Assembly (NCBI RefSeq): GCF_029589435.1 | Contig: NZ_JARRAG010000002.1 | Span: 4,464,001-4,528,000, forward strand | Direction: 5' to 3' | DNA: 64,000 nt | DNA from: Paludisphaera mucosa | GTDB taxonomy: Bacteria > Planctomycetota > Planctomycetia > Isosphaerales > Isosphaeraceae | Shown: positions 51,239-63,654 of the stretch, piece by piece | How the letters are laid out: each line of letters opens with the position of its first letter | Numbering within the stretch: the stretch's first letter is position 1 | Position numbers and translations under genes: made by a program | The notes under the pieces: generated by a model | What the model saw: the letters and a program-made list of their open reading frames with translations, nothing else | Databases searched by the model: none | Told to the model about the DNA's origin: nothing

Positions 51239-54200
51239 TCAGCGCGAGGCGACGCCCTTGAGCTTGTCGCCGGGCTTGATCGAGGCGTCGAGGTGGTCGC
51301 CCTCGTGGCCGATCCAGTCGATGAGGATCGGGGTGGCGATGTAGACCGTGCTGTAAGTGCCGCTGAGGAAGCCGACGACCAGGGCGAAGGCGAAGCCGTG
51401 CAACCCCTCGCCGCCCAGCACGTACAGGACGAGCACGACGAGCCAGGCGGTGAGCGACGTCAGGACCGTGCGGCTCAGGGTCTGGTTGATGGCGTCGTTG
51501 ACCAGCTTGGGGGTCAGGTGGGGCGTCTTCCCCTTGATCTCCCGGATGCGGTCGAAGATGACGATGGTGTCGTTCACCGAGAAGCCGATGAGCGTCAGGA
51601 AGGCCGCGACGATCGGCAGGTCGATCTTGAACTGGTCGATCATCAGCAGCGTGTTCAGACCCGGCACGAGGGCCAGCCAGTAGCTGACGGCGATGGCGCC
51701 CAGGGTGATGAGCACGTCGTGGACGACCGCGAGGACGGCGGCCAGGCCGTACGTGAACGAGTGGAACCGCCACCAGAGGTAGACGATGATGATGATCCAG
51801 CTCGCCACGGTGGCGATCAGGGCCAGCGTCCGCGTCTCCGAGGCGACCGTGCTGCCGAAGTTGGCGATCCGCTCGAAGAGCATGTCGCGGTTGTTGGCCA
51901 GCGAAGTCTTGAGGGCTTCGAGCTGGGCCTTGGCGACGTCGGGCTCCAGGTCGGTCTTGAGGAGCAGCCTCGTCCCCTCGGCGGCCGGCTTGTCGGCCGA
52001 GCCGGCGGGCGTGATCTCGAACCGCGAGTTCGGGGTGGCGATGCCGGCGGCGGCGAGCACCCGGGCGAACTCGGACGAGACCACCTGGGCCGGCGGCTGG
52101 GGGCTGTTGAACGCCGTCGTGTTGAACGCCAGGTCGTACTCCCGCCCGCCGGCGAACCGGGCGGCGATCGTCGTCGGGGCGGCCTTGGCGGCGGCGGGGG
52201 CGGCCGGCGCGGGGGTCCCGGGGATCGGCCTCTCGGCCCCGACGGTCATGTCGATCTTGGCGAGCGACGGGCCGAACGCGGCGATGATCGCCTCCTGCAC
52301 CCGCTTGGGGTCGAGGTCGGTGGTCCGGATGTTGAACCGGGCCGCCCGATCCTTCTGGTTCTGGGAGACGCGGAGGCTCTCGATGGTCACGTCGGGGAGC
52401 ACGCCGGCCTTCTCGCGGACGAACTCGGTGCGCTGGCTGTCGGTCAGGCTGCGGACCGTCGTGTCGGCCTCGTTGAGCCGGATGGTCACCAGGGTGCCGC
52501 CGGTGAAGTCGATGTTGTACATCGTCCGGCCGCGGGCGAAGAACGCCCCCAGGCCCAGCAGGATCAAGACCAGCGACGCCGCCATGCAGTAGTAGCGGGG
52601 GCCGACGAAGTCGATGTTCGTCTTGTCCCAGAGCTTGCGGAACCGCAGCTCGCGGAGCCAGCCCTGGGCGTAGGCCGTCTCGAAGATGAACCGCGACATG
52701 AAGACGGCGGTGAACAGGTTCCAGAGCATGCCCAGGATCATCGTCAGGGCGAAGCCCTTCACTTCCTCGGTGCCGACGGCGTAGAGCACGATCGCGGCCA
52801 GCAGGTTGGTGACGTGGGAGTCGAAGATCGTCACCCAGGCCCGGTTGAAGCCGTTGCGGATCTGCTGGGCCAGGCCCGCGCCCCGCTCCTTCTCCTCGCG
52901 CATGCGCTCGAACACCAGCACGTTGGCGTCGACCGCCATGCCGATCGTCAGCGCCAGGCCGGCCAGGCCGGGCAGCGAGAACGTGGCCTGGATGAAGGCC
53001 ATCGAGCCCACCAGCAGGATCATGTTGACCACCAGCGCGACGACCGCCACCACGCCGGCGAAGCGGTAGTAGAAGATCATGAAGATCGGCACGACGAGCA
53101 TCGAGACCCAGATGGCCTGCCAGCCCTTGGCGATCGAGTCCTCGCCCAGGGTCGGGCCGACGTTCTCCTCCTGGAGCGGCACCGGGTTGAGGCTCGCCGG
53201 CAGGCTGCCGGCCTGGAGGATGTTGATGAGGTGCTGGACCTCCTTGAGCTTGAAGCCCTGGCCGCCGCCCTCGATGATGCCCGAGTCGCGGATCTCGGAG
53301 TTGATCGACGGGGCCGACATCACCAGGTTGTCCAGCAGGATCGCCAGCTGATACCGGAAGGCGTCGCCCTCCTCGGGCAGGTGCTCGCGGGTGAGCTGGC
53401 CGAAGCGGCGGGCCCCCATGCGGTTGAACTGGAAGCCGACGGCCGGCTGGAGCTTCTCGTCGGTCTGCTGGTAGGCGCGCGACAGGTAGACGCCGGTGAC
53501 GTCCTGGCGGTCCTGCACGCAGAGGATGTAGACCTCGGTGCGGCCGTCGGCGACCTTCTCCTCGCGGATGATCGGGTCGCCGGGGAGCGGGCTCGCCGGG
53601 TTGCCGGCGCGGATGCCGCTGGGGTTGTACGAGACCTCGTACGAGGCGATCGACTTGAGGTTGTGGGGCTCGGTCAGGGTCAGGGTGTCGGCCGTGTTGG
53701 TCTTGACCGGGATCGCCAGCCGCTTCTCGGCGCCGCCCGCGTCCTTGCCGGTCAGCAGGACGTCCACGCCGGCGTAGAGGTCGCGCTTCCAGTGCTGCTT
53801 GGGGTCGGTGATCGTGACGTCGGTGAACTGGGGGTCGACGCCGGTGGAGATCTCGCCCAGCCGCGCCCACTTGTACCGCGCGGGGGGCTTGGCCAGGCCG
53901 CCGGGGCCCATGGCGCGGGCGATCGCCTCGGAGTCGTGCTTGCGGTTGGCGAGGATCCGGAACTCGAGCGAGCCGACGTCCGTCAGCATGCTCTTGATCT
54001 CCTCGACCTCCTCCGGACCCGCCTTGGGCAGGATGATCTCGAGCCGGTTGTTGCCGATGTTGCGGATCGGCGTCTCTTTCACCCCCTGAGGGTCGGCCCG
54101 CTGCTTGAGCGCGGCGATCAGCTCGTTCATGTTGAAGTTGGGGGCCGCCTGGCTCTCCTTGGCGACCTCGTAGACGAGGATCGTCCCCCCGGAGAGGTCG

Positions 54201-54301
54201 ATGCCCAGCTTCAACTTCTTCTCGGGGGGATACATGGCGATCAGGCCCAAAAGGGTCGACCCCACGATCAAGGCGCTCTTCCAGTTCAGCATGTTCTTCA
54301 T
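51239..54301 (-). CDS. secDF: SecD-SecF fusion, protein translocase accessory subunits
   Basis: A 1020-aa fusion of SecD (about 1-560) and SecF (about 570-1020), which uses the proton gradient to pull exported proteins through SecYEG. SecD part: KLGIDLSGGTILVYEV, a large periplasmic P1 head (GSLEFRILANRKHDSEAIAR, then INILQAGSLPASLNPVPL) and six helices with TIGMAVDANVLVFERMREE. SecF part: YNIDFTGGTLVTIRL, then LTLIGFSVNDTIVIFDRIRE. Fused SecDF is common in planctomycetes, and the SecF periplasmic loop is unusually long here (about 250 residues). Last gene of the tgt-yajC-secDF operon; a 265-bp gap separates it from yajC. Confidence 0.95.
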   Translation of the reverse strand: MKNMLNWKSALIVGSTLLGLIAMYPPEKKLKLGIDLSGGTILVYEVAKESQAAPNFNMNELIAALKQRADPQGVKETPIRNIGNNRLEIILPKAGPEEVEEIKSMLTDVGSLEFRILANRKHDSEAIARAMGPGGLAKPPARYKWARLGEISTGVDPQFTDVTITDPKQHWKRDLYAGVDVLLTGKDAGGAEKRLAIPVKTNTADTLTLTEPHNLKSIASYEVSYNPSGIRAGNPASPLPGDPIIREEKVADGRTEVYILCVQDRQDVTGVYLSRAYQQTDEKLQPAVGFQFNRMGARRFGQLTREHLPEEGDAFRYQLAILLDNLVMSAPSINSEIRDSGIIEGGGQGFKLKEVQHLINILQAGSLPASLNPVPLQEENVGPTLGEDSIAKGWQAIWVSMLVVPIFMIFYYRFAGVVAVVALVVNMILLVGSMAFIQATFSLPGLAGLALTIGMAVDANVLVFERMREEKERGAGLAQQIRNGFNRAWVTIFDSHVTNLLAAIVLYAVGTEEVKGFALTMILGMLWNLFTAVFMSRFIFETAYAQGWLRELRFRKLWDKTNIDFVGPRYYCMAASLVLILLGLGAFFARGRTMYNIDFTGGTLVTIRLNEADTTVRSLTDSQRTEFVREKAGVLPDVTIESLRVSQNQKDRAARFNIRTTDLDPKRVQEAIIAAFGPSLAKIDMTVGAERPIPGTPAPAAPAAAKAAPTTIAARFAGGREYDLAFNTTAFNSPQPPAQVVSSEFARVLAAAGIATPNSRFEITPAGSADKPAAEGTRLLLKTDLEPDVAKAQLEALKTSLANNRDMLFERIANFGSTVASETRTLALIATVASWIIIIVYLWWRFHSFTYGLAAVLAVVHDVLITLGAIAVSYWLALVPGLNTLLMIDQFKIDLPIVAAFLTLIGFSVNDTIVIFDRIREIKGKTPHLTPKLVNDAINQTLSRTVLTSLTAWLVVLVLYVLGGEGLHGFAFALVVGFLSGTYSTVYIATPILIDWIGHEGDHLDASIKPGDKLKGVASR

Positions 54302-54566: not shown

Positions 54567-54908
54567 TCACTCCGACGTCGATCCCTCCAGCACCCGCACG
54601 ACGCTGGAGCGGGTCAGGCTCATCTTGACCCCCTTGTCGTCGTCGATCCGCAGCACCACCCGGTCCGACGCGGGGTCGACCGAGATCACGGTGCCGTAGA
54701 TGCCCCCGGCCGTGACCACCTTGTCGTTCTTCTTCAGGGCGTCGATCATCACCCGCCGCTTCTTCTCCTGCTCCTTCTGCGGCATGTAGATCATGAAGTA
54801 GAAGAGCAGGGGGATCGGCAGCAGGAACAGGAGCGTCGTCCAGTTGCTGGGCGCCGCGCCCGCGTCCTGGGCGAGGAGGGGGCCGATCGCGTCGAACAGT
54901 CCTGGCAT
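54567..54908 (-). CDS. yajC: Preprotein translocase subunit YajC
   Basis: A 113-aa membrane protein. One transmembrane helix (LLFLLPIPLLFYFMIYMP), then QKEQEKKRRVMIDALKKNDK and VVTAGGIYGTVISVD, the YajC core. It associates with SecDF during export. The ATG at 54908 gives MPGLFDAIGPLLAQDAG; an in-frame longer start is not supported. Between tgt and secDF, as in many bacteria. Confidence 0.93.
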   Translation of the reverse strand: MPGLFDAIGPLLAQDAGAAPSNWTTLLFLLPIPLLFYFMIYMPQKEQEKKRRVMIDALKKNDKVVTAGGIYGTVISVDPASDRVVLRIDDDKGVKMSLTRSSVVRVLEGSTSE

Positions 54909-55009
54909 CGTGAGGGGTCCGTTAGGGCTCGGTGCGATTCGCAAAGGGTCGCGGCGCGCGGCCGGGGCTCGGGGCCCGACGGCGGCCGGAATTTCCTGCA
55001 CTCTAACGC

Positions 55010-56161
55010 CTAGGGTCCCAAGGCTTCAAGCACGTCCAACCGCAACTGGACGAATCGACCGGCCCGTATCGCTTCGCGCATCCGACGCGTGAGGCGGTGG
55101 AGGTAGGCCAGGTTGTGGATCGACGCCAGGATCGGCCCCAGCATTTCCCGGGCGAGGAACAGGTGCCGCAGGTATCCCCGCGAGAACCGCGAGCAGGCCA
55201 GGCAGTCGCAGCCCTCCTCCAGCGGCCGGGGGTCGCGGGCGTGGGCCGCGTTTCGGAGCTTGACCGGGCCGGCGTCGGTGAAGCACGTCGCGTTGCGGCC
55301 GTTGCGGGTCGGCATCACGCAGTCGAACATGTCGATCCCCGCGTGCACCGCGTCGAGCAGGTCCTGGGGCCGGCCGACCCCCATCAGGTAGCGCGGGCGA
55401 TCCTCGGGCAGGAGGTGCACCGAGACGTCCAGGGCCCGCCGGACCTCCTCGCGGCTCTCGCCGACGCTCACGCCGCCGACCGCGTAGCCGTCGAAGTCCA
55501 TGGCGATCAGGGCCTCGGCGCAGCGGCCGCGGAGGTCCTCGTGGGCCCCCCCCTGGACGATGCCGAAGAGGGCCTGGTCGGGGCGGCGGCGGGCGTCCTG
55601 GCAGCGGGCGGCCCAGGCGATCGTGCGGTCGACGGCCCGGGCGATCTCGGCCTTCTCGGCCGGCAGGGCGGGGCACTGGTCGAGGCACATGGCGACGTCG
55701 GCCCCGAGCGCCTCCTGGATCGCCACGGCGCGCTCGGGGGTCAGCTCCAGCAGGCGGCCGTCGAGGTGCGAGCGGAAGGTCGCGCCGTGGTCGGTGATCT
55801 TGGCCCGCTGGGCGAGGCTGAAGACCTGGAAGCCGCCCGAGTCGGTCAGGATCGGGCCGTCCCAGGCCATGAAGCGGTGCAGGCCGCCCAGGGCCGCGAC
55901 CGTCTCCTCGCCGGGGCGGAGGGCCAGGTGGTAGGTGTTGGCGAGGAGCATCCGCGAGCCGGCCTCGCGGAGCTGGTCCGGGGTCAGGCCCTTGACGGTC
56001 GCCTGGGTGCCGACCGGCATGAACGCCGGGGTCTCGACGGGCCCGTGGGGGGTGTCGAGCCTCCCCGCGCGGGCGGCCGAGCCGGCGTCGCGCGCCGTCG
56101 CGGTGAAGCGTACGGGGCGGACGCCGCGCGGGGGGGCTTCGAGGGTGGGTTCCGGGCTCAA
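55010..56161 (-). CDS. tgt: tRNA-guanine transglycosylase (queuine tRNA-ribosyltransferase)
   Basis: A 383-aa enzyme that exchanges guanine-34 of GUN-anticodon tRNAs for preQ1, leading to queuosine. The first catalytic Asp is Asp107 in [11 protein letters not shown], the nucleophile lies in [17 protein letters not shown], and the zinc site is CDCLACSRF with the His of the later [21 protein letters not shown] and [14 protein letters not shown] are typical. The start is a TTG at 56161 with a slightly extended N-terminus, and it lies 7 bp after the stop of the TPR/alpha-CTD gene, so it is read from that promoter. yajC is about 100 bp downstream. Confidence 0.95.
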
Positions 56162-56168
56162 GGGACGG

Positions 56169-57560
56169 TCAGTCGTTCTTGAGCTTCAGGCCGAGCGCCG
56201 AGAGCTTGTCGCGGACCTCGTTGAGCGAGGTGACGCCGAAGTTCTTGCACTCCAGCAGGTCGTCGCCGGACCGCTTGGTGAGGTCGCCGACGGTCTGCAG
56301 GTTGAGCTTGCTCATGCACTTGCGGGCCCGGACCGAGAGGCTCAGCTCGCTGATCGGCTTGCCCAGCATCGCCTGCAGCTCGGGCGAGACCTCCTGCGGG
56401 GGCTCGGCGCGATGGTCGACGCCGCCGGGGCCGCCGCGCTCGGCGCCTTCGAGGGCCATGCCCAGGCGGACGCCCTTGGACCGCATCATCTCCTTGATCT
56501 CGGCGAGCGAGGTCTCGCCGAAGTTCTTGGAGGCGAGCAGGGCCGCCTCGGTCGTCCGCGTCAGGTCGCCGAGCGTCCGGATGTTCATCTTCCGCAGGCA
56601 GTTGCGGCTGCGGACCGAGAGCTCGAAGTCGGTGACGGGGATCTCGAGCAGCTGCTTGAGGACCGTGTAGCCCTTCTCGGCCTCCTCGTCGTAGTACATC
56701 CCCTTGCTGGCCTGGCAGTCCTTGACGAACAGCCGGGCGCGGGGGTGGTTGGGCTCGTACTCGAGGACGTGGCGATAGCACTGCTCGGCGTCGCGGAACT
56801 TCATCTCGTCCTCGTACAGCACGCCCAGGTTGATCCAGGCGGCGAGCGGGACGGGGGGGCGCTCGGTGCAGCGCTTGTAGAAGTCGACGGCGGCCTCGTC
56901 GTTGCCGTAGAGGTCGTTGATGTAGGCCAGCTCGAAGAGCGCGCCGTTGTGGTCGCGGTCGAGGTTCAGCGCCTTCTCCAGCTCGCCGGCGGCCAGCTCC
57001 AGCTCGCCCTCGGCGGCGAGGATGGCGCCCTGCTGGAAGTGGAACTCGGCCGACGAGCCGACCGACTTCTCCAGGCCGTGGAGGATCTTCTTGGCCTCTT
57101 CGAGCTTGCCGGCGGCCTCTTCGGACTTGCCGTTGGCCACGTCCATCTGGCCCAGCCGACGCAGCGAGCCGGCGCGGCGGAGTTCCGAGTTCTTGGCGTC
57201 GTAGCCCAGCTTGGCCGACTTCGCGAAGGCTTCGGCGGCCTCCCGGTACTTCTGGAGGTTCTCGAACGCGAGGCCCTGGAAGTAGAGCGCCATGCCCAGG
57301 TCGCCGGCGCGCTTGAGGTTGTCCAGGCCGGCGGCGTAGCGGCCCAACAGGACCTCGCCGACGCCCAGCCGGAGGTGGGCCTCCGGGGTGTTGCTGGCCT
57401 GCTTCTTCTCGCGGTCGCGGATCGTCGCCACGGCGTCGCGGAGGGTCCGGTAGCGGGACGGGTCGCGGTTGAGCACCTCGCGCAGGTCGGCGACGGCCGA
57501 AACATCGAAGGGCGTGCGATCCATGATCGCGCGGACGTCCGTGGTCATCATCTCAGTCAT
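56169..57560 (-). CDS. TPR protein with two RNA-polymerase-alpha C-terminal-type domains
   Basis: A 463-aa protein. About residues 60-310 are tetratricopeptide-like repeats ([40 protein letters not shown]-like units, [20 protein letters not shown]). Two helix-hairpin-helix alpha-CTD domains follow: the first has [15 protein letters not shown] and [14 protein letters not shown], closely matching the DNA-binding surface of RNA polymerase alpha (R, N, C; G, S); the second has [14 protein letters not shown] and [13 protein letters not shown], with Lys at the usual Asn position. The true polymerase alpha subunit is elsewhere, so this is a likely DNA- or polymerase-binding regulator. The start ATG at 57560 has a GGGAGA site. 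First gene of the operon with tgt, yajC and secDF. Confidence 0.85.
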
Positions 57561-57653
57561 CGCCGAATCATCTCCCTGTTCCGCCCGCTTTCCGAGCCTT
57601 CCCCGCCGCGCGTCGGGCCGCGACGCCTGCGACGTCGCCGGGGTGAATCCCAT

Positions 57654-57681
57654 ATCGTAACGAATTCCCTTGACTTGTCAA
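57654..57681 (-). promoter_or_regulatory. Promoter of the TPR/alpha-CTD - tgt - yajC - secDF operon
   Basis: Read leftwards: TTGACA (57681-57676, perfect), a 16-nt spacer, TACGAT (57659-57654). The start codon is about 95 nt downstream. The palindrome TTGACTTGTCAA (57670-57681) covers the -35 box, so a repressor could act there. Confidence 0.6.
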
Positions 57682-57717: not shown

Positions 57718-58851
57718 TCACCCTTCGACGTCCGGGCCCAGGGCCGAGCGGAGCCGGTCGAGGATGTCGACGCCCTTCAGCGCCTGCAGGCGGGGGAGGG
57801 CCCGGCGCGCGTGGCGGAGCGCGGCGTCGACGTCGCCGGCCGCCGCGAGGGCCAGGGCGAGGTCGGCGTCCAGATAGTCGACGGCGCCCCCGACCAGCGG
57901 CGACGCGTGGCGGAGGGCCGAGAGCCGGCGACGGGCGTCCACCAGCAGGGGGATCGCCTCGCGAGGCCTCCCCTCGTCGCGGAGGATCTTCCCCTCCAGG
58001 GCGAGGGCGAAGGGGGTCAGGACGTCGCTCAGGGCGTGCTCGCGGGCGCGGGCCGGCAGCTCGCGGGCCCGGCGGGGATTGCGGCCGTGGCGGATCTCGA
58101 ACCCGCCCAGGTCGAGGAGGATGCTCGGGTTGCCCGGGGCCAGCTCCGCGGCGCGCTCCAGGGCGGTGCGGGAGTCGTCCGGGCGCTTCGCGGCGTTGTA
58201 GATCTCGGGAAGGCGGCCGTTATAGAGCCAGCCGGCCATCGCCTCGCCGTCGCCGTAGGTGGCGATGACGGCCAGGGCCTCGTCCAGCCGGCCGAGCCCG
58301 GCGAGGGCCTGGGCGCGGCGGAAGGCCAGCTCCTCGGGCGGGACCCGCGAGCCCTTCAACCCGTCGGCGGCCCTCAAGGCATCCTCCCTGCGGCCCCATG
58401 CGACGGCCTCGATCAGCTTACCGTATCTCCCCGCCCGCTCCCGGAGAAGCTGGGCGGCCGCCGCGAAGATCATCGGCCAGATGACGACGAACGCCTGGAG
58501 CCAGTCGATCGCGGTCCAGGGCCATCCCCGCCAGCGTCGATAGGCGAGCACGGCCGCGGCGAGGAGGATCAGACCGCGACTGCGGCGGTAGATCGCCTTC
58601 GAGACCACCAGGAACCCCGCGATCGGCGCGGGGAGGTCGCGGAACCGGAGGTAGTCGCGCGGCGAGACGACCTCGGCGACGGCCGCCTGCCGCGAGTAGA
58701 GGGCGCCCACGTCGTCGGTGTGCAGGACGACCTCGTCGAGCCCCCTCGCCTCGCGGGCGATCCGGACGGCGTCGTCGGCCGACCCGGCCTCGATGCGCTC
58801 GGTCGCCGACCTGCCCGCGGAGTCGCGGCCGGTCACCAGGTACTCGGCCAT
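57718..58851 (-). CDS. TPR-containing membrane protein
   Basis: A 377-aa protein. The N-terminal 60 residues (LVTGRDSAGRSATERIEAGS, then AVRIAREARGLDEVVL) resemble the N-terminal domain of type II secretion GspF. Two hydrophobic helices (RGLILLAAAVLAYRRW and AFVVIWPMIFAAAAQLL) anchor it, followed by a TPR-like helical region facing the cytoplasm (AGLGRLDEALAVIATYGDGE, RRARELPARAREHAL). The start ATG at 58851 was chosen because the conserved part begins there; a longer reading frame upstream is non-coding in character. It lies beyond the operon promoter, on the same strand, separately transcribed. Confidence 0.65.
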   Translation of the reverse strand: MAEYLVTGRDSAGRSATERIEAGSADDAVRIAREARGLDEVVLHTDDVGALYSRQAAVAEVVSPRDYLRFRDLPAPIAGFLVVSKAIYRRSRGLILLAAAVLAYRRWRGWPWTAIDWLQAFVVIWPMIFAAAAQLLRERAGRYGKLIEAVAWGRREDALRAADGLKGSRVPPEELAFRRAQALAGLGRLDEALAVIATYGDGEAMAGWLYNGRLPEIYNAAKRPDDSRTALERAAELAPGNPSILLDLGGFEIRHGRNPRRARELPARAREHALSDVLTPFALALEGKILRDEGRPREAIPLLVDARRRLSALRHASPLVGGAVDYLDADLALALAAAGDVDAALRHARRALPRLQALKGVDILDRLRSALGPDVEG

Positions 58852-58963
58852 GGCTGGAAGCCTCCGGACGGCTCGACCGCCCCACGATCGCCGAGGCGCG
58901 ACGAGGGCGTCGCAGGATATCCCGCCGCGAGGGCCTTCCGCCCCTCGCCGGCGGGGCATGAAA

Positions 58964-59538: not shown

Positions 59539-60609
59539 TCAATATTGATCCGAGCTGACGACCTCGCCGGCGGCCCGGGTGCCGAGGGCTCGCCAGACCG
59601 TGGGGTTGATCGCATCCTTGATGAAGTGGACCGATCCGTCGCCGAAGAGGACGTTCACGCCCCCCGAGTGGTAGCTTCGCGCGGCGATGTGGGCGGCGAA
59701 GAAGTTCGACGACCCGCAGTCCCATCCCCGGTAATTGGGCGGGACCGTGTGGGTGTAGGTCGTGGTGATCGGGAGCTGGCGGTAGTACTGCATCCCCCGG
59801 TAGGCCAGGCTGGACCCCGGCCCGTTGCACTCGGGCAGCTTCACGGCGCCGTTGTCGAACCCGGTCCCGAAGTAGAAGACGCGGTCCGGGTGGTCGGCGG
59901 CCTGGCCGGTCCCGCTGCCGTTGGGGAGCCTCGACCGCTTGATCTCGGCGAACATCGCCGTGTTCGAGGTGCCGTCGGTGATGTCGGCCAGCCGGACCCC
60001 GGCCATGATCTTCTGCCAATCGGGGTTCCCGCGGGGCGCGGTGGCGTTGAGCCGGATGTTGAAGAGGCCGGCCCGCGTGGAGTCGGTCTCCTCGCCGACG
60101 GTCGTGTCCGCCCCCAGCCGCTGGCTGGCCGTCGCCCCCAGGCTGGCGAAGTAGTTGTTGTTCCCGGTCCCGCCGATCCGCTCCAGCGAGGGATCCGACG
60201 GGCAGAGATAGGCCGAGACCTGCTGGAGGCGGGCGGTGCCGTTGCCGGCCTGGGCGTTGACGTCGAGCTGGAAGTTGAACGCCCCGTACAGGTTCGCCTG
60301 CTCCATGTAGCCCAGGATCAGCGCCTGGACGTTGGGCCGGCTGTTCCCCTGGTTCCCCTCCTGGCCCGGGACGCCGCCGTTCGGCGCCGGCCCCCAGCCG
60401 TCGGGGAGCTTGCCGTTGGACGACTCGAAGTTGTAGACCGCCAGTCCGATCTGCTTGAGGTTGTTGGTGCACTGGATCCGCCGGGCCGCCTCGCGGGCGG
60501 ACTGCACGGCGGGGAGCAAGAGCGCGATGAGCACCGCGATGATCGCGATGACCACCAGCAGCTCGATCAGCGTGAATCCCGACCTCGACTGACTCGCGGA
60601 CGCGGGCAT
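59539..60609 (-). CDS. DUF1559 domain pseudopilin-like protein
   Basis: A 356-aa protein with [19 protein letters not shown] at residues 9-27, then [20 protein letters not shown] and the C-terminal block [20 protein letters not shown] with [19 protein letters not shown]. The N-terminal peptide (MPASASQSR) is removed by prepilin peptidase. The middle domain ([37 protein letters not shown]) is beta-rich. It is followed by a lipoprotein gene 39 bp away. Of the four copies in this window, it and the one at 62641 are most alike. Confidence 0.93.
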
Positions 60610-62640: not shown

Positions 62641-63654
62641 TCAGAAGGAGTCGGAGGAGATCACCTCGCCGCCGGCCACGCTGCCCAGGGACCGCCAGGT
62701 GTTGCCGTCGATGCTGCTCTTGATGAACCGGACGGAGCCGTCGCCGAACAGCGAGTTGACGCCGCCCGCGTGGTAGCTCCGCGACGTGATCGCCGCGTAG
62801 GTCGGCCCGCCGGACTTCTCGCCCACGCCCACGATGTCGACGTCGACCATCGTCGGCCCGCCCAGGATCACCTTGTTGGGCGGCCAGGCCGTCGTGAACC
62901 CCGTCTCCAGCGCCGCGCCGTCGACCCACTCGCCGTGGCCGTGGTCGTTGAGCGTGCACGCGCCCGACTTGTACTCGGGGACCGCCGAATAAGGATCCGC
63001 CACCGGCGACGGGATCGAGCCCGGCTCGAGCACCGTGGACAGGGTGCACTTCGTGAGCATGTTCTGGTACGTCTTGACCTCCGAGGTCCAGACCGTATTG
63101 CTCAGGCCGTCGGTGAACTCCGCGAACCGTCGACTCCGGTTCGCGCCGAACGCCCCCCGCCCCTGCGCCGAGGCCGACAGCCCGCCGAAGACGTACCAGT
63201 CGCCCACGTTCCAGTTGTAGCTGGCCACCCCGTACCGGCCGGTCGCCGTGGGCCTCGGCTCGGGCCGACGCTCGCTCGGGCAGATGTACCCGGCGATCAC
63301 CAGCTGCGAGACCGTCGCGTTGTCCGCCGCCGAATAGTTGAGCGTGAAGTTGACCGAGTTGAACGCCGCGTTCTGCTCCAGGTACGGCAGCAGGCGGCCG
63401 TTGATGCTCCAACCGTTCGACCAGAAGCCCGCGCCGTTCTTCGCCACCACCACCGACGGCGGCAGGACGCCCTGGCTCCCCTCGTAGTTCGCCACCGCCA
63501 GGCCGAGCTGCTTCAGGTTGTTGACGCATTGGATGCGTCGGGCCGCCTCCCGCGCCGACTGCACGGCCGGCAGGAGCAGGGCGATCAGGACGGCGATGAT
63601 CGCGATGACGACCAACAACTCGATCAGCGTGAAGCCGGCGCGGGGTCGACGCAT
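62641..63654 (-). CDS. DUF1559 domain pseudopilin-like protein
   Basis: A 337-aa protein with [19 protein letters not shown] and ARRIQCVNNLKQLGLAVANY at the N-terminus, a middle part with YICPSERRPEPRPTATGRYG and FTDGLSNTVWTSEVKTYQNM, and the family ending SYHAGGVNSLFGDGSVRFIK, then TWRSLGSVAGGEVISSD. The start ATG at 63654 gives a 6-residue basic leader before the prepilin cut. No lipoprotein gene follows, unlike the other copies. Upstream is a short palindrome (63720-63736) in a locally AT-rich region. Confidence 0.93.
   Translation of the reverse strand: MRRPRAGFTLIELLVVIAIIAVLIALLLPAVQSAREAARRIQCVNNLKQLGLAVANYEGSQGVLPPSVVVAKNGAGFWSNGWSINGRLLPYLEQNAAFNSVNFTLNYSAADNATVSQLVIAGYICPSERRPEPRPTATGRYGVASYNWNVGDWYVFGGLSASAQGRGAFGANRSRRFAEFTDGLSNTVWTSEVKTYQNMLTKCTLSTVLEPGSIPSPVADPYSAVPEYKSGACTLNDHGHGEWVDGAALETGFTTAWPPNKVILGGPTMVDVDIVGVGEKSGGPTYAAITSRSYHAGGVNSLFGDGSVRFIKSSIDGNTWRSLGSVAGGEVISSDSF

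Follow-up and report, generated by a model that had tools for sequence, protein, structure and literature searches.

The stretch of DNA analysed here, a 64-kb window of the Paludisphaera mucosa genome, contains a gene for a protein in which TPRs are joined to alpha-CTD domains like those of RNA polymerase, placed ahead of genes for protein export. The question that this locus raises is what such a protein does, and whether its position and a palindrome at its promoter mark it as a regulator of the export genes or of itself, as the original prediction suggested.

A TPR protein with two alpha-CTD domains heads the operon

We place the coding sequence of the TPR/alpha-CTD protein at positions 56169-57560 of the minus strand (463 aa), where it covers the Pfam domains described below. 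The ATG at 57653 had been proposed as the start, but this is wrong, since that codon abuts the -10 hexamer and lies 5' of any start point. The ATG at 57560 is the true start, because it has a ribosome-binding-site-like GGGAGA (57571-57576, minus strand) 10 nt upstream and opens a conserved N-terminus, M-x-E-x-M-T-T-D-V-R, that is common to most relatives in the order; the 5' leader is therefore about 90 nt long. That the gene heads the operon holds: tgt, encoding queuine tRNA-ribosyltransferase (55010-56161, minus strand; PF01702, E-value 1.6e-154), starts 7 nt past its stop codon, and is followed on the same strand by yajC (54567-55001; PF02699; true start probably further in) and a secDF fusion (51239-54301; PF02355 and SecDF_P1_head). 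A gene for a second TPR protein (57718-58959, minus strand) shares this orientation, ends just 5' of the promoter, and was not found beside the alpha-CTD gene in the relatives examined. Farther upstream the window encodes two prepilin-like proteins (59539-60609 and 62641-63654, minus strand), whose N-termini are typical of large planctomycete pseudopilin families.

The TPR array spans residues ~60-275 (56736-57383, minus strand), with matches to TPR_2, TPR_8, TPR_1 and TPR_16 as well as to consensus TPR proteins and the TPRs of O-GlcNAc transferase; the scores of TPR_2 (51.5 versus 27 bits), TPR_8 (44.7 versus 25.7) and TPR_1 (40.9 versus 27.8) exceed the Pfam cut-offs. It is followed, as the original prediction had it, by two alpha-CTDs of family PF03118, namely CTD1 at residues ~302-367 (56460-56657, minus strand) and CTD2, which begins with LSVRARKC, at residues ~397-461 (56178-56372, minus strand). 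The Pfam search gave PF03118 an E-value of 2.7e-40 and 136.3 bits over the two stretches, and 74.3 and 71.9 bits for them singly, against a gathering score of 23.8 bits. Among solved structures, CTD1 comes closest to alpha-CTDs of E. coli, one of them in the CAP-alpha-CTD-DNA complex 1lb2 (E-value 1e-14), and CTD2 is likewise supported by structure matches and by its conservation. A single-sequence AlphaFold model of the full-length protein was poor (mean pLDDT 49); in a structure search, one portion of the model resembled alpha-CTD chains (target TM-scores as high as 0.88), at weak overall E-values, none below 0.001. A hydrophobic segment resembling a membrane helix was not found in the protein, the top 19-residue Kyte-Doolittle mean being 0.75.

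Only three PF03118 domains occur in the whole genome, one in a separate, complete rpoA and two in the TPR/alpha-CTD protein. The latter does not reach the NCBIfam cut-off for whole RpoA (136 of the 302 bits needed), as its match is confined to the CTD part. It is thus like the alpha-CTD of RpoA in fold and residues, both domains lying well above the Pfam cut-off and CTD1 sharing its DNA-contact residues with the host RpoA, but it differs from RpoA in having no alpha-NTD and two CTDs per chain, with a TPR array replacing the assembly domain. AfsR of Streptomyces (SARP-NOD-TPR) is similar in being a transcription-linked protein with a TPR array that activates at promoters, but its SARP and NOD domains set it apart, as do the lack of an alpha-CTD and an unrelated DNA-binding part (PMC10936776). 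An alpha-CTD on another protein is also seen, in weak matches, in PglW of BREX, in an extension of the beta' subunit and in PRK07758 (NCBIfam), though the partner domains are different and near-universality in a phylum is not known for them. The paper searches that we made found no described function for this architecture, in agreement with the original prediction, and the keyword matches in the main text of a study of essential genes in Planctopirus limnophila mention no such TPR protein (PMC10632474).

The protein is nearly universal in Planctomycetota

Of 246 genomes sampled from the whole of Planctomycetota, 232 encode a full-length relative; four genomes had no match, and a further ten, left out of the 232, had a best match of RpoA strength only. 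Among genomes at least 90% complete, the protein is present in 132 of 134, and in 41 of 45 from the order. Three Planctomycetota genomes (G019, G058 and G063) have five to six alpha-CTD domains instead of the usual three, suggesting extra paralogs. The same query at an E-value of at most 1e-17 found no relative in the phyla of a Verrucomicrobia genome (0 of 240), a Hydrogenedentes genome (0 of 68), a Pelotomaculum genome (0 of 199) or a Leptolinea genome (0 of 201), that is, in none of 708 genomes from these four phyla. Among 16 named genomes, a relative was present only in that of Brocadiaceae, a planctomycete. The protein is thus near-universal in Planctomycetota and, judging by the phyla sampled, apparently restricted to them. 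In a tree of the domains, the CTD1s form one phylum-wide clade and the CTD2s another, with supports held to a moderate level (0.76-0.85) by the shortness of the domain; the tandem architecture is therefore ancestral to the phylum.

The export genes are neighbors only in some lineages

The gene lies directly 5' of tgt-yajC-secDF in the family of the window and in some other families. Two further families have the order TPR-alphaCTD, (ruvC), ruvA, ruvB, queH, SpoIID, tgt, yajC, secDF (L101:11375-11863; L071/L072), and a SpoIID gene separates the gene from tgt in other loci; at these loci SpoIID, RuvC and RuvA were named from Pfam, and QueH by eye from its sequence. Overall, 20 of 39 loci have tgt no farther than 10 kb away, either immediately adjacent or beyond ruvAB-queH-SpoIID, and the rest lack it there. 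Outside Isosphaerales, about half of the loci examined have ruvA, or ruvC and then ruvA, immediately after the gene; in others the gene adjoins neither, and in some it is followed by unrelated genes. The position before tgt-yajC-secDF is best read as what erosion has left of an ancient ruvCAB-queH-tgt-yajC-secDF cluster, and this erosion argues against an export-specific role. As nearly all genomes of the phylum encode the protein but only some lineages have its gene directly adjacent to tgt-yajC-secDF, the proposed regulation of the export genes is not supported, and we rejected an export-specific function for this lineage-dependent linkage.

The same neighbors raise the possibility of a recombination or repair factor, in which the alpha-CTDs, being tandem folds of the helix-hairpin-helix type, could tether complexes of the RuvCAB type to DNA. 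The cluster context, with ruvA or ruvC-ruvA directly 3' at so many loci, lends weak support to a role in DNA repair. However, ruvAB-que-tgt-yajC-secDF is a generic bacterial cluster, e.g., ruvAB-queA-tgt-yrbF in B. subtilis, so the adjacency says little; moreover, the CTDs match RpoA (1e-40) and not RuvA, and CTD1 retains D259 and E261, the presumed sigma contacts. We consider such a function unlikely.

The DNA-contact residues of CTD1 are strictly conserved

In the E. coli alpha-CTD, R265 and N294 insert into the minor groove, K291 and K298 form backbone salt bridges, and the two alpha-CTDs of a polymerase sit side by side on the UP element (PMC7822876); R265 and N268 are critically needed for DNA binding (PMC11434276). 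In the numbering of E. coli RpoA, which we use throughout, CTD1 has R265, N268, C269, N294, G296, S299 and E302, and is changed only at K298, which is replaced by T, bearing out the near-complete DNA-contact set originally noticed in one of the domains. Since T298 is also the residue of the host RpoA and of 26 of 29 Planctomycetota RpoA sequences, the set in CTD1 is complete for this phylum. Across 81 distinct orthologs, R265, N294, G296, S299 and E302 of CTD1 are invariant (81 of 81 each), and N268, T298, D259 and E261 are each found in 79, so that these contact positions together with 259 and 261, which we take to be contacts with sigma region 4 in E. coli RpoA, are 98-100% conserved. Position 291, a lysine in E. 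coli, is A or S in CTD1. CTD2 has K or R at position 268, and Arg267 is present in 77 of the 81 orthologs in CTD1 and likewise in CTD2, where RpoA mostly has S, A or T. Both features set the protein apart from RpoA, and Arg267 is, at the level of sequence, an addition in both of its CTDs. Mean pairwise identity in diverse sets was 68% for CTD1, 55% for the CTD of RpoA and 48% for CTD2, a comparison that is approximate because the orthologs and the RpoA sequences were sampled from different genomes. Among the sequences compared, the DNA-contact residues of CTD1 are retained at least as strictly as those of the polymerase itself.

It could be argued that the alpha-CTDs serve purely as protein-binding modules, e.g., to hold a NusA-like protein during elongation or coupling, and that their DNA face is conserved for structural reasons or has been reused for protein. 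Alpha-CTDs do bind proteins such as Spx (1z3e), yet the invariant residues are exactly those of the DNA-contact set, whereas positions 287-288, presumably the activator contacts of E. coli RpoA, vary among the 81 orthologs, which makes this explanation distinctly improbable.

Phages carry a stand-alone relative of CTD2

A search of viral contigs revealed two phage lineages that encode a stand-alone protein of 111-143 aa with one alpha-CTD (IMG/VR contigs, L246:2800-3231 and L248:2971-3306; also L247 and L249). It groups with CTD2 and not with RpoA, being nested within the CTD2 clade, and its gene lies near that of the large terminase, which we recognized by eye. None of the PHROG families covers this CTD2-like protein. 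Its occurrence suggests that CTD2 may be functional by itself and of importance to phages.

The stand-alone phage domain also speaks for a negative factor, in which unattached alpha-CTDs would vie with RNA polymerase for activators or upstream DNA, as does the complete DNA face with its extra Arg267. On the other hand, a decoy would need no TPR array, and near-universality together with conservation beyond that of the CTD of RpoA suggests a positive, housekeeping role; we therefore regard a negative factor as very doubtful.

The palindrome at the promoter is confined to one genus

The only sigma-70-like promoter found at the 5' side of the gene is TTGACA-16-TACGAT (57654-57681, minus strand), which matches at 10 of 12 positions, against 0.0 expected in shuffles; five of the six genus members have a promoter that matches equally well. 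Its -35 box does lie within the element originally described as a palindrome, TTGAC-TT-GTCAA (57670-57681), but the palindrome is imperfect: it has the form TTGAC-N2-GTCAA with a non-palindromic center, the first arm being nothing other than the -35 box. The sequence TTGACTTGTCAA occurs once in the window, and TTGACWWGTCAA once in the 8.2-Mb genome. The palindrome is intact in five of six members of the genus, these being five species, and is absent from the other 24 relatives in the order examined, many of which keep only the core promoter, so that it accompanies the gene in five of 30 order members, all of one genus. We accordingly rejected it as a phylum-wide operator. In addition, the promoter offers no UP-element-like target, because A and T make up just 17% of the 41 bases that precede the -35 box. 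Autoregulation in the genus of the window is possible. As for the dedicated regulator originally envisaged, which would bind the palindrome and control both itself and tgt-yajC-secDF, its place at the head of the operon and a palindrome unique in 8.2 Mb and kept in most of the genus speak for it, but we hold it to be very unlikely, given that the palindrome is missing from the other 24 relatives examined in the order, that the neighbors vary across the phylum while the protein persists, and that alpha-CTDs prefer an A/T-rich minor groove over palindromes (established knowledge; PMC7822876).

A general transcription-associated function is proposed

A DNA- or polymerase-linked function of the predicted protein is well supported by the conservation of its residues. 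TPR-alphaCTD is probably an undescribed, general, transcription-associated factor and not a regulator of the adjoining export genes. As its mode of action we propose, with a rough probability of 0.45, that it is a cytoplasmic adaptor acting in trans, with its CTDs on upstream DNA and perhaps on sigma region 4 and a partner bound to its TPRs, and that it serves as a housekeeping factor throughout the phylum. In such an adaptor, the TPR superhelix would form a protein-docking surface that carries the two tandem alpha-CTDs in the cytoplasm; CTD1, and CTD2 with its modified surface, would grip the minor groove of DNA as the two CTDs of the polymerase do; and CTD1 retains the acidic patch that touches sigma region 4 in E. 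coli RpoA. The protein would thereby act in trans at or near promoters, adding to or replacing the upstream contacts of the polymerase's alpha-CTDs, and the partner bound by the TPRs would be tied to the transcription machinery. DNA binding and the contact with sigma or polymerase we infer from the residues, and the docked partner and any influence on transcription are likewise inferences. Against the adaptor count the replacement of K291 and K298 in CTD1, the lack of AT-rich, UP-like DNA at its own promoter, and the ruvA/ruvC neighbors in deep lineages, which also fit DNA recombination. More tentatively, and with some doubt on our part, the protein might be a general transcription factor derived from detached alpha tails, in which a TPR-borne pair of CTDs provides contacts with upstream DNA and sigma region 4 in trans, and which is important enough for phages to carry CTD2.

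The domains of the protein are known ones in an arrangement that is near-universal in one phylum and apparently limited to it. The alpha-CTD is a central contact of bacterial RNA polymerase with DNA and activators, and a near-universal, phylum-specific protein with two such domains, more tightly conserved than the copy in the polymerase, suggests that Planctomycetota may possess a component of transcription that is missing from model bacteria.
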